Source of the DNA: Halorussus pelagicus | GTDB lineage: Archaea; Halobacteriota; Halobacteria; Halobacteriales; Haladaptataceae | Assembly (NCBI RefSeq): GCF_004087835.1 | Contig: NZ_CP035119.1 | Span: 1,054,001-1,118,000, forward strand | Direction of reading: 5' to 3' | Length of the DNA stretch: 64,000 bases | In this document: positions 41,392 through 44,897 of the stretch, in pieces | Numbering within the stretch: the first letter of the stretch is position 1 | How the letters are laid out: every line of letters starts with the position of its first letter | Notes under the pieces: generated by a model | The model's database searches: none | The model's input: only the letters and a program-made list of their open reading frames with translations | Told to the model about the DNA's origin: nothing | Program-made: the position numbers and the translations under genes

Positions 41392-42279
41392 ATGGGCATC
41401 AGCATCGACGAGAAGCGGGTGTACGACGCCAGCGAGGGACCGACCCCGGTGTACGTCGTCGGCGAGTTCGGGGTCGCGCGCGTGGACACCTCCGACGACC
41501 TCGTGGGCGAGTTCGGACTGGCCCACCGGTGTACGGCCCGCGACGCGGCGGGGCGGGACGGACATCTCGCGGTGGCAACCGACGAGGACGTGCTGGTCGG
41601 GGTCTTCGGCGACGAACCAGATGAAGACGATGACGCTTCGGAGACCGAGTTCCGCGCGCTCGGCGTCGGTCCGGCGGTCGCGGTCGGGTTCGCCGACGGC
41701 GGTGCGGGCGGTGGTCTCGTGGCGGCCCGCGAGGACGGCACGGTCGTCCGCGAAGGCATCCCAAGAGAGTCAGCTAGCGATGACGCTCCGGACTGGACCG
41801 AACTCGACGAACTGGACGACGTGCGCGCAATCGACGGCGGCCTCGTGGCCGCCGCGTCGGGCGTTTACCGGGTCGAGGACGACAGTCTCCGGCACGTCGG
41901 CTTAGAGAGCGTCCGGGGCGTGTCCGCCACCGGGGTACCGCTGGCCGCGACCGACGACGGCCTGTACGAACTGGGCAACGGGTGGCTGGACGCGCTCGAC
42001 GGCGAGTTTCGAGCGGTCAGCGCGTCGGACGCGGACGCATCTGTGTCCGCGGGCACTCTCGGCCGAGCGCACGCCGCGGGCGCGGACGGCCTGTTCGCCC
42101 ACGAGGACGACGAGTGGCGGGCGGTGGAGTTGCCCGTCTCCGGGGAGGTCGTCGCGCTCGACCAGGGCGAGGGCACGTACGCGGTGACGGCGGAGGGAAC
42201 GTTCCTGCTGTCGGTCGGCGACGGGTGGACCCACCAGATTCTCGGGCTTCGCGGGGTCGAGGCGGTCGCCGCGCCGTAA
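41392..42279 (+). CDS. HVO_0234-family beta-propeller protein
   Basis: A 295-residue acidic protein built of about six repeated blades of the form GLVAAxxGVYRVEDD or LAATDDGLYELGNG. It matches the haloarchaeal HVO_0234 beta-propeller family by pattern. It has no signal peptide, so it is cytoplasmic. Start at ATG 41392. Function unknown. Confidence 0.75.
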   Translation: MGISIDEKRVYDASEGPTPVYVVGEFGVARVDTSDDLVGEFGLAHRCTARDAAGRDGHLAVATDEDVLVGVFGDEPDEDDDASETEFRALGVGPAVAVGFADGGAGGGLVAAREDGTVVREGIPRESASDDAPDWTELDELDDVRAIDGGLVAAASGVYRVEDDSLRHVGLESVRGVSATGVPLAATDDGLYELGNGWLDALDGEFRAVSASDADASVSAGTLGRAHAAGADGLFAHEDDEWRAVELPVSGEVVALDQGEGTYAVTAEGTFLLSVGDGWTHQILGLRGVEAVAAP

Positions 42280-42454
42280 CCCTTCCAGATTGGAATGTTA
42301 TTCTCAAGTATGTGGAATTGTTTATCATATGGTTAGGATTATTTCTGCGAAGTATATCTGATTTTGACGTTGCCTCCCGTTTCGCTAAACCCGCCACACA
42401 TTTAGTCTATATAGCTACGTAGGTTTATGCCTCAATTCGGGACGAAATGGGGGC
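42280..42454 (+). promoter_or_regulatory. AT-rich promoter region before the restriction endonuclease
   Basis: An AT-rich 175-nt stretch. TTTATG (about 42424-42429) lies 28 nt before ATG 42455 as a TATA-like box. An AT-rich block ATTGTTTATCATATGG sits further upstream. No operator or control-protein site is evident. Confidence 0.4.
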
Positions 42455-43624
42455 ATGTATTCGATCTGGGAGAACGCTACTCTCAACGCGTATTTACAGA
42501 GCATCGTCAACGAGGAGGACATCGAAGACCACCTCGTACAGGAGTCGCGCTGGAAGATTTCGTACCGGGAGTCGCAACTCGACCGTCGGGGACTCCTCGA
42601 AAAGCACGAACGCGCGACCACGCTCGACAGTTGCACTTTGGACTGGAACGACCTCGGCGTGTCCGACCAAGCACGACGGACACTTTCGGATAAGGGCGTC
42701 GGTGTCGAACATCTCCATCGCTTCTTCGCCCATCCGACCGTTCTAGCCGAGAATCCGGATCTCCTCGATTACTATCGATCCCTCGCGGGGATGTCAGAAA
42801 ACCGACTCGGCGATATGAAGAGCGTCCGCGGAGCAGTTCGGTCGCTTCGTCGTTCAAATTCGATGACATTAGGCGAGAACTCGGAGTTGAATCGGCTGTG
42901 TCAGTATTTCAATTCGCTCATCAGTACGTGGGCGTCGGGACTTACAGACAAGGACCCCAAGCGGAAGGCTCTGGTTAGTGCCCTCCTCACAGAGGGAGCG
43001 GCTATCGAAGGGTCGTCTCGAAACGCCGGCGGTCGAAAGGCGGTTGTCAACGTCGCTTCGGTACTGATAGAGGACTTTTCTGAGCACGACTGTCTCGATT
43101 CCTTCGTAATAAAGGAGGGTTCGGACGACGAGTTTGAGCGGATTCCAGCTTCGAAGCTCGGTGACGAATACGTCCTCTCCGACGTATCCGGTGCGTACGA
43201 CGTTCGGGAGATCGAGACTGGGAAAGGGACAGTCAACGTAGACGCGACAGAGCCAGATTTAGTCGTCTCGACCACGACCGATATCGTCGGCTACGGCGAA
43301 ATCAAGGACCGAAAGGACAAGAGCAACCAATGGGAAGGCTGGCTACCGAACGTCCGAAGTAAGTTGGAAGGTTTCAAACAGAACAACCCGTCGGCGAAAC
43401 GGATACTCCTTCAACCGGTCTTCACCCGTCGGATGGTCGAAGGCGAACGCGGCCACGATACCGAAGACGTTGGGGTGCGATATCTGGTAGAACAGGACCT
43501 TCTCGACGTACCATTCAATATCAACAAGATACTCGCCGACGAGTCCCACCGAGACTTCTTCGGGGCCTACGTCCGAGACGCACTCGGCTATCAAGTGGAC
43601 GACCTCACGCCACCACAGGCATAA
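42455..43624 (+). CDS. PD-(D/E)xK restriction endonuclease, type II (unassigned family)
   Basis: A 389-residue protein whose C-terminal half carries the nuclease core: Pro267-Asp268 (EPDLVVS) followed by Glu282-x-Lys284 (GYGEIKDRKD). The N-terminal 200 residues are helical with conserved-looking blocks (LVSALLTEGAAIEGSSRNAGGRK). It ends at the base before the stop of a convergent C5-methyltransferase. That arrangement and the motif make a type II restriction enzyme the best reading. I cannot place it in a specificity family. Composition is slightly more AT-rich than the host, fitting transfer. Confidence 0.72.
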   Translation: MYSIWENATLNAYLQSIVNEEDIEDHLVQESRWKISYRESQLDRRGLLEKHERATTLDSCTLDWNDLGVSDQARRTLSDKGVGVEHLHRFFAHPTVLAENPDLLDYYRSLAGMSENRLGDMKSVRGAVRSLRRSNSMTLGENSELNRLCQYFNSLISTWASGLTDKDPKRKALVSALLTEGAAIEGSSRNAGGRKAVVNVASVLIEDFSEHDCLDSFVIKEGSDDEFERIPASKLGDEYVLSDVSGAYDVREIETGKGTVNVDATEPDLVVSTTTDIVGYGEIKDRKDKSNQWEGWLPNVRSKLEGFKQNNPSAKRILLQPVFTRRMVEGERGHDTEDVGVRYLVEQDLLDVPFNINKILADESHRDFFGAYVRDALGYQVDDLTPPQA

Positions 43625-44743
43625 TTAGAGCGCGTCGAACGTCATCTGTCTCGCGCCTTTGTCCGTAATCGGACGGAGTTCACGTATCTTTTCGGCGATG
43701 GCTTCCCCGAGTTTCGGCGGGACCGCATTCCCGTTTTGCTCGTACCAGCTGATAAACGGCCCCTCGAATATCCAACTATCCGGGAACGACTGCAAACGTG
43801 CCGCCTCTCGTACCGTGATATTTCGATTCTGTTCGGGATGGACGTACCGACCGCAAGACGGGGTACTGGACTTCCGAGTTATCGTCCCCGCCGGTCGGTC
43901 CCAGTGCATCCGGCCGTACGTATCGCAAAACGACCCCGTATCTCCCTTCTTGGCCCGCTTTTTCATCGAGTCGAGCCAGAATTCGTCTTGATGTGGTTCG
44001 GGAATGTCCATCCACGACCCACCGTCGTTCGGAATGTGGTTGAGCATAGTCACGATTCTACTTGTGTGGTTCGGAGCCTGATGCATCGAATCCGTGTCGT
44101 GGGTCTCTCCGGCTTCGACCGCCGGCAAATCACCGATAGCGTCCCGAACAGTTCGGGGCTCCTCGGTACAAGCGTCCGGAAGTTCGACTAACCGACCATC
44201 ACGCCGAGCGACGATAATCGCTCGCTTCCGACGTTGCGGAACGCCGAAATCCGCCGCATTGAGAATATCGTGTTCAACTAAGTACCCGGCTTGTTTCAAT
44301 ATCTCGTATGTTCGTGCCCAGTACTTCTCTTTAGACCCTCGTACGAGTTCTGGAACATTTTCGATGACGAAAAACTCGGGTTGTATCTCCACGGCCAGTT
44401 CCGCACTAAAGGAGACCAGCGTGTTTCGCTCGTCGTGGTCGAAGTCGTGTTTGTTCTGATGCTGGCTGAATCCTTGACACGGAGCGCACGCGATCAGAAC
44501 GTCCAGTTCGCCGCGTTCGATACCGAATTTGTCAAGCAACTCGTCTGCGGAGTAGTTAGTAACATCGCCCTGTAACGGGGTTGTTCCGATATTCGAAGCG
44601 TAGGTCGCAACCGCGTGTTCATTCTTGTCGATTGCACCGACACACTCGAACCCTGTTTGTTCGAATCCCAAACTCATTCCGCCGCAACCACAGAAGAGAT
44701 CAGCATACAGAAGGGGTTCAGAAACCGATTCTTCGTTTGGCAT
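43625..44743 (-). CDS. DNA cytosine-5 methyltransferase (type II modification)
   Basis: A 372-residue enzyme with the ordered C5 motifs: I DLFCGCGGMSLGFEQ, IV ACAPCQGFSQHQ (catalytic Cys89), VI FFVIENVPELV, VIII PQRRKRAIIVARR, IX VREAARLQSFPDSW and X NGNAVPPKLGEAI. The recognition region between VIII and IX is of moderate size. It would protect sites cut by the adjoining endonuclease gene, whose stop abuts its own. Start at ATG 44743. Confidence 0.93.
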   Translation of the reverse strand: MPNEESVSEPLLYADLFCGCGGMSLGFEQTGFECVGAIDKNEHAVATYASNIGTTPLQGDVTNYSADELLDKFGIERGELDVLIACAPCQGFSQHQNKHDFDHDERNTLVSFSAELAVEIQPEFFVIENVPELVRGSKEKYWARTYEILKQAGYLVEHDILNAADFGVPQRRKRAIIVARRDGRLVELPDACTEEPRTVRDAIGDLPAVEAGETHDTDSMHQAPNHTSRIVTMLNHIPNDGGSWMDIPEPHQDEFWLDSMKKRAKKGDTGSFCDTYGRMHWDRPAGTITRKSSTPSCGRYVHPEQNRNITVREAARLQSFPDSWIFEGPFISWYEQNGNAVPPKLGEAIAEKIRELRPITDKGARQMTFDAL

Positions 44744-44897
44744 CTGAGAGGAAATAGTCCACCCATTCGTTTAATATCTGGTGTTCCAGCAGCTCTTCTC
44801 GATACTACTGAAGCGAAAACCCAGTCCGTGTTATCCTAAGTCGATGGTCTGTATTCAATTGAAAACCGATTTACCCGCCGACGTACACCCCTCGCAC

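Follow-up and report, generated by a model that had tools for sequence, protein, structure and literature searches.

CCCGGG as the probable target of a haloarchaeal restriction-modification pair combining an XcyI-type endonuclease with a C5-cytosine methyltransferase

Here we propose that two convergent genes of the haloarchaeon Halorussus pelagicus very likely form an ordinary Type IIP restriction-modification system that recognises CCCGGG, cuts it as C^CCGGG and protects the host's own sites by 5-methylcytosine (m5C). A preliminary description of the locus had put forward a type II restriction-modification pair, which the data support, and had left the endonuclease unassigned and its recognition site unnamed. 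On both of these latter points we arrive at a different view: the endonuclease scores over the cut-off of an established family and is predicted to have a BsoBI-like fold, and homology together with site avoidance in carrier genomes points to CCCGGG. The new content is this assignment and a testable site; in kind, the system is ordinary and looks intact.

An unassigned haloarchaeal restriction-modification pair is thereby turned into a concrete and cheaply testable prediction (CCCGGG, m5C), and into a source of a CCCGGG enzyme that may tolerate salt. The prediction also tells haloarchaeal geneticists which incoming DNA should be cut on transformation. From a methodological standpoint, the comparison of site avoidance between carriers and their congeners across genera can reveal the target of a restriction enzyme before any bench experiment.

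Results

A convergent gene pair and its relatives

The pair was studied in a window of 64,000 nucleotides, by which we mean the whole stretch of DNA that was analysed; it spans 1,054,001 to 1,118,000 of a haloarchaeal chromosome, and positions are counted from its first letter. The XcyI-type restriction endonuclease gene, referred to as R, is an open reading frame of 389 amino acids with an ATG start (42455 to 43624, forward strand), and the gene of the cognate C5-cytosine DNA methyltransferase, referred to as M, is an open reading frame of 372 amino acids, likewise with an ATG start (43625 to 44743, reverse strand). They lie tail to tail with abutting stop codons and 0 bases between, in agreement to the base with the preliminary description.

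R is present in four of the 391 genomes of the class, and a Pfam family search over the 391 genomes returned the same four: the genome of the window, Haloferax marinum MBLA0078, Halorubrum rubrum YC87 and a genome designated G328. A weak partial match in another genome (G193; 97 residues, 31%) was excluded from the carriers. In the other three carriers the proteins are 73-76% (M) and 56-63% (R) identical to those of the window. The tail-to-tail order is kept in all four haloarchaeal carriers, with stops that abut, overlap (by 4 or 6 nt) or are separated by 1 nt, which is more than chance would be expected to give. Bacterial homologues of R (22-26% identical) were found on a Polymorphobacter plasmid and in Umezawaea, Pseudomonas and Sphingomonas, and each of these four has a C5 methyltransferase adjacent to it, in divergent or tandem order.

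An adjacent C5 methyltransferase thus accompanies R in 8/8 homologues whose surroundings could be read (four from haloarchaea, four from bacteria), and by this conserved gene pairing the locus is classed as a putative type II restriction-modification system. The alternative, that an unrelated nuclease gene happens to neighbour an orphan methyltransferase, draws on the statement in excerpts of PMC6471742 that orphan methyltransferases are common in haloarchaea; it is contradicted by the recurrence of the pairing in all eight neighbourhoods and in two domains of life, and we regard it as barely credible. Among viral contigs, 33 stretches fitted the search pattern and none coded for a relative; one match in a phage collection (H2) is a record of 2118 bp.

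Family assignment and catalytic residues of the endonuclease

Residues 90-208 of R match the Pfam family RE_XcyI (PF09571) with an E value of 2.8e-9 and 37.1 bits, against a curated cut-off of 25, although this match leaves out the catalytic stretch. R also matches the PADLOC model REase_II PDLC03539 (333 positions; E 8.9e-9). The RE_XcyI family includes XcyI, Cfr9I and XmaI, which are CCCGGG enzymes cutting C^CCGGG. The three other haloarchaeal homologues score just under the PF09571 cut-off of 25 (21.0-23.6 bits), and a search of the four bacterial homologues with the same model gave no match, so that these proteins appear to represent a divergent branch. An NCBIfam search with R returned nothing, its sole match, T6SS_PAAR (E 0.073), being far under the cut-off of that model. 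Searches of PDB sequences with R alone, and then with a profile, found no relative. The best profile match, a TAL repeat (E 0.02), aligns over an N-x-G-G stretch only and was taken as chance.

The PD-x13-EIK motif reported earlier for the endonuclease (Asp268, Glu282 and Lys284) is present as described, at P267-D268-x13-E282-I-K284 (43253 to 43306, forward strand). Conservation of its acidic and lysine residues in homologues had been suggested as a check on the reading, and P267, D268, E282 and K284 proved invariant in 5/5 sequences of one alignment (A1) and 7/7 of another (A2), together representing 8 distinct proteins. R286, D288, S290, N291, W293, E294, W296 and P298, just after the motif, are likewise invariant in the 8 aligned homologues.

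Predicted fold of the endonuclease

In the AlphaFold model of R (pLDDT 80.4, pTM 0.64), D268 adjoins a strand at 269-273, and E282-x-K284 ends a strand at 277-283, which is followed by a helix (293-310) and a further strand (315-320). This modelled layout, with P-D and E-x-K on neighbouring core strands, is that of a PD-(D/E)XK nuclease. The top PDB match of the model is BsoBI (1dc1; Foldseek E 2.9e-5), and structural comparison of the two by VIA gave a Z score of 18.6 with an rmsd of 5.2 over 287 residues, the next family reaching 8.7. When the Pseudomonas homologue was modelled (pLDDT 74.6), BsoBI again took first place (Z 16.2, rmsd 3.1, 178 residues; next 8.2), while Foldseek alone found no match under E 1 for this model. 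The CCGG-family enzymes Bse634I, Cfr10I, SgrAI, AgeI and BsaWI were second-tier matches of R, with Z scores of 7 to 8.6. Because the resemblance extends along most of R and far exceeds that to the next fold, R is assigned a predicted BsoBI-like fold. According to excerpts of PMC4652773, BsoBI recognises CYCGRG specifically and wraps around the DNA by means of a two-part dimer interface.

The methyltransferase partner

M matches PF00145 with 238.4 bits (cut-off 22) and TIGR00675 (dcm) with 203.8 bits. Motif IV reads APCQGFS, with P88-C89-Q90 at 44474 to 44482 on the reverse strand, and motif VIII reads QRRKRAIIV; motifs I (DLFCGCGG), VI (ENVPEL), IX (TVREAARLQSFPD) and X (GNAVPPKL) were read by eye. 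C89 corresponds to the catalytic cysteine, the general role of this residue in C5 methyltransferases. The earlier report of C5 motifs in this protein is therefore borne out, and the PF00145 domain, the PCQ and the other conserved motifs mark M as a predicted C5-cytosine DNA methyltransferase.

The closest plasmid-borne relatives by bit score are methyltransferases on plasmids of Thermus sp. NEB1569 and 4C, to which M is 42.6% identical. These sit beside an R that is PF09571-like at 17.6 bits, below the cut-off, and that is 22% identical to the window R (one-to-one BLASTP comparison, E 1e-6). A Vsr gene is expected beside m5C methylation and is annotated next to both the Polymorphobacter and the Thermus pairs; none was seen at the window pair.

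The target-recognition domain of M contains the motif YGRx8TIx9GRYVH (residues 276-302; 43838 to 43918, reverse strand), and the Thermus NEB1569 enzyme carries YGRx8TIx9GRxLH, exactly the motif printed for M.TspMI, to which that of M is close. Excerpts of PMC2413257 give this motif for M.TspMI, an enzyme recognising CCCGGG, and state that GTCGAC enzymes share nearly the same one. Much the same motif also occurs in sampled methyltransferases that have no known R, and a Halorhabdus methyltransferase with YGRx8TLx9GRFTH has no annotated R homologue beside it. Since the motif is common to GTCGAC enzymes and to such methyltransferases, its presence in M suggests a CG-centred target and nothing more specific.

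Depletion of CCCGGG in carrier genomes

CCCGGG was counted in whole genomes, and ratios of observed to expected occurrence were calculated from a maximal-order Markov model on sampled stretches, which amounted to 864 kb of the window's own genome (loci L027-L066 and the window), 400 kb of Hfx. marinum and 180 kb of Hrr. rubrum. The own genome contains 33 CCCGGG sites in 3.49 Mb, the lowest raw count of the 18 congeners, with none of them in the window; at 9.5 sites per Mb it is second only to the congener G395 (7.7), the genus median being 248.6. In its sampled stretches 3 sites were seen where 352 were expected (0.01), rank 2 of 62 palindromes. Hfx. marinum has 69 sites, against 585-909 in 14 congeners, and CCCGGG is its most depleted palindrome of 46 (7 seen, 99.8 expected, ratio 0.07; next 0.36). 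Hrr. rubrum has 145 sites, the second lowest count of 39 genomes, and here too CCCGGG ranks first, out of 39 palindromes (7 seen, 103.4 expected, 0.07; next 0.27). The corresponding ratios in two non-carriers, the congener G175 and the Haloferax genome G189, are 0.59 and 0.47.

It is thus one and the same hexanucleotide that stands out in the Haloferax and Halorubrum carriers, and it coincides with the site of the RE_XcyI family, which makes CCCGGG the best supported target. Against this stand one of the four carriers and three genomes with no known copy. The carrier G328 has 2166 sites, the fourth lowest count of six in its genus, and with a ratio of 0.75 it is not depleted. Two Halorubrum non-carriers are also low (G013 with 120 sites and G204 with 196, the other 36 genomes having 841-1868), and G395, as mentioned above, has the lowest density of its genus. 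In any one genome, depletion is compatible with a past system or with chance.

It could accordingly be argued that the scarcity of CCCGGG is unrelated to the pair, whose target could then be a different one, and was caused by other systems, past or present. The three depleted genomes with no known copy and the carrier that is not depleted speak for this explanation, as do the different C5 methyltransferase next to an HNH-like reading frame in G395 and the depletion of seven further CpG palindromes in the own genome, described below. It has to contend with a signal that is specific, roughly 15-fold, found in carriers of three genera and strongest of all palindromes in two of them, and that concerns precisely the RE_XcyI family site; we therefore hold it to be very improbable.

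The reading frame in G395 that reads like an HNH nuclease and the C5 methyltransferase next to it (locus L008, 700-3243; 37% identical to M) may form an unrelated system whose target overlaps. G013 and G204 contain other C5 methyltransferases, at loci L162, L165 and L166, with 34-39% identity.

Selectivity of the depletion

The own genome shows eight CpG-centred palindromes at ratios of 0.05 or less (TCGCGA, CCCGGG, GTCGAC, GCCGGC, CTCGAG, CACGTG, GACGTC and GGCGCC). Such joint depletion cannot be explained by one restriction-modification pair, and its CCCGGG figure taken alone consequently proves little. In the congener G175, GCCGGC, CACGTG, CTCGAG and GGCGCC stand at 0.07 or less.

The other two depleted carriers are more selective. 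Under the maximal-order model, ACCGGT stands at 0.99 in Hfx. marinum and 0.83 in Hrr. rubrum, and TCCGGA at 1.05 and 0.98; the inner tetranucleotide CCGG stands at 0.97 in Hfx. marinum. CYCGRG as a whole is free of depletion in carriers, which, as far as avoidance can tell, argues against it as the target, and the depletion concerns the six-base site CCCGGG.

These figures bear on the possibility that the genes form the same kind of pair with another or wider CG-centred target, such as CYCGRG, GTCGAC or a relaxed version of CCCGGG. The closest fold is that of BsoBI, a CYCGRG enzyme, the target-recognition motif of M is common to GTCGAC enzymes, and in the own genome GTCGAC and CTCGAG, both at 0.02, are depleted like CCCGGG. 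In Hfx. marinum and Hrr. rubrum, however, where CCCGGG is at 0.07, the ratios are 0.77 and 0.96 for GTCGAC, 0.42 and 0.75 for CTCGAG, and 1.03 and 0.94 for CCCGAG (the last from an order-2 model), and, for CTCGAG, the Haloferax non-carrier G189 (0.12) lies below the Haloferax carrier. A wider target is, in our estimation, unlikely.

Mutation at methylated sites was considered as a cause of the depletion. CCTGGG is the product of a C-to-T change at the CpG of CCCGGG, and it exceeds its mirror CCAGGG in none of the three genomes (CCTGGG and CCAGGG, respectively: 0.63 and 0.65 in Hfx. marinum, 0.65 and 0.65 in Hrr. rubrum, 0.06 and 0.08 in the own genome). In view of the near equality of the two in Hfx. 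marinum, the loss of CCCGGG cannot be put down to deamination of methylated sites alone, and the comparison does not single out any one C as the methylated base. Both sequences are strongly low (0.06-0.29) in the own genome, G175 and G189 and less so in Hfx. marinum and G328, a pattern that may reflect avoidance of sites resembling CCWGG.

A related question is whether only M is active and R dead or silent, so that the locus would serve as a modifier only. G328 tolerates 2166 CCCGGG sites alongside an intact-looking R, which would fit such a state. On the other side, R is full-length in every carrier and its catalytic residues do not vary, three of the four carriers are strongly depleted, as lasting selection against the sites would give, and the C-to-T signature is missing in Hfx. 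marinum; a dead or silent R seems to us distinctly unlikely.

Insertion site

The pair lies in a segment (42279 to 44857) with a GC content mostly of 50-57%, against 60-72% on either side. One flanking gene encodes an HVO_0234-like beta propeller (Pfam PF23366), and the other, from inspection by eye, we take to encode a ribose-phosphate pyrophosphokinase. The flanking genes are 2579 bp apart here. A comparison in which 11 of 17 congeners returned a locus placed them 68-327 bp apart in seven of the 11 and 717 bp apart in one; in two more, some 1.25 kb of other DNA lies between the flanks, and in the remaining one the upstream gene was not found. These differences in flank distance identify the pair as an insertion at a variable spot, and by composition and empty site the insert looks recent. 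The cargo of the gap varies, with an arylsulfotransferase-like gene in G392 and two genes devoid of a Pfam match in G406 (loci L154, 2385-3637, and L158, 259-1500).

A young-looking cassette fits awkwardly with a hundredfold genome-wide depletion of CCCGGG in the own genome, unless part of that depletion predates the insertion. The two would be reconciled if the lineage had earlier possessed another CCCGGG system.

Discussion

The reading that we favour, a CCCGGG-specific Type IIP system, would operate as follows. R would act as a homodimeric, XcyI-type PD-(D/E)XK endonuclease whose BsoBI-like fold encircles the DNA, and would cleave unmethylated CCCGGG in incoming DNA. Its nuclease activity, predicted from the invariant residues and the fold, would consist of Mg-dependent hydrolysis at D268, E282 and K284, and CCCGGG is its probable actual target by homology and by site avoidance in carriers. 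By analogy with XcyI, Cfr9I and XmaI, the cut would most likely be C^CCGGG, leaving 5'-CCGG ends; dimerisation and encirclement of the DNA are suggested by analogy with BsoBI. M would methylate carbon 5 of a cytosine within CCCGGG and so protect the host, and our guess is that the methylated base is the third C, the one in the CpG. The pair as a whole would move between haloarchaea as a compact convergent cassette.

With XcyI, Cfr9I and XmaI the system shares an R over the PF09571 cut-off and a family site that is depleted in three of four carriers. It differs in the partner, since a table in PMC8557920 lists M.XcyI and M.Cfr9I as N4-cytosine enzymes, whereas the partner here is a C5 enzyme. 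For this reason we file only R under PF09571 and do not file the pair as an XcyI/Cfr9I system. The TspMI system of Thermus, also directed at CCCGGG, is alike in that the Thermus plasmids combine the C5 methyltransferase and M.TspMI motif noted above with a distant relative of R; it is unlike in its arrangement, the Thermus genes being tandem with Vsr beside them and the window pair convergent and free of Vsr. We infer the Thermus NEB1569 locus to be TspMI, on the basis of the motif that it carries and of its NEB strain designation, and the Thermus pair suggests that an XcyI-type R with a C5 partner is not unique to haloarchaea.

Comparison with enzymes of known structure leads to a similar picture. 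BsoBI is by far the best fold match, for two models, yet R has no sequence match in the PDB and the BsoBI site is not depleted in carriers. The CCGG-family enzymes have the PD-(D/E)XK core in common with R but align over some 140-170 residues, and ACCGGT and TCCGGA (in Hfx. marinum and Hrr. rubrum) and CCGG (in Hfx. marinum) are not depleted.

One possible history, which we advance tentatively and would not favour over its negation, is that XcyI-type enzymes have swapped partners, with the protective N4-cytosine methyltransferase replaced by a C5 enzyme for the same site in a branch spanning Thermus, proteobacteria and haloarchaea, and that this salt-adapted branch then strongly counter-selected CCCGGG throughout haloarchaeal genomes. 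In excerpts of the literature on CCCGGG enzymes, BsoBI, haloarchaeal m5C and Haloferax marinum, neither this pair nor a haloarchaeal m5C CCCGGG system is reported. CCCGGG is entered just once in the excerpts of PMC6471742, accounting for 7% of methylase group U, which is otherwise mostly CTAG. As regards the bacterial relatives, the Polymorphobacter plasmid pair (locus L006, 1-2473) lies near a gene annotated as DndB as well as beside its Vsr gene, and could thus belong to a more extensive group of defence genes.
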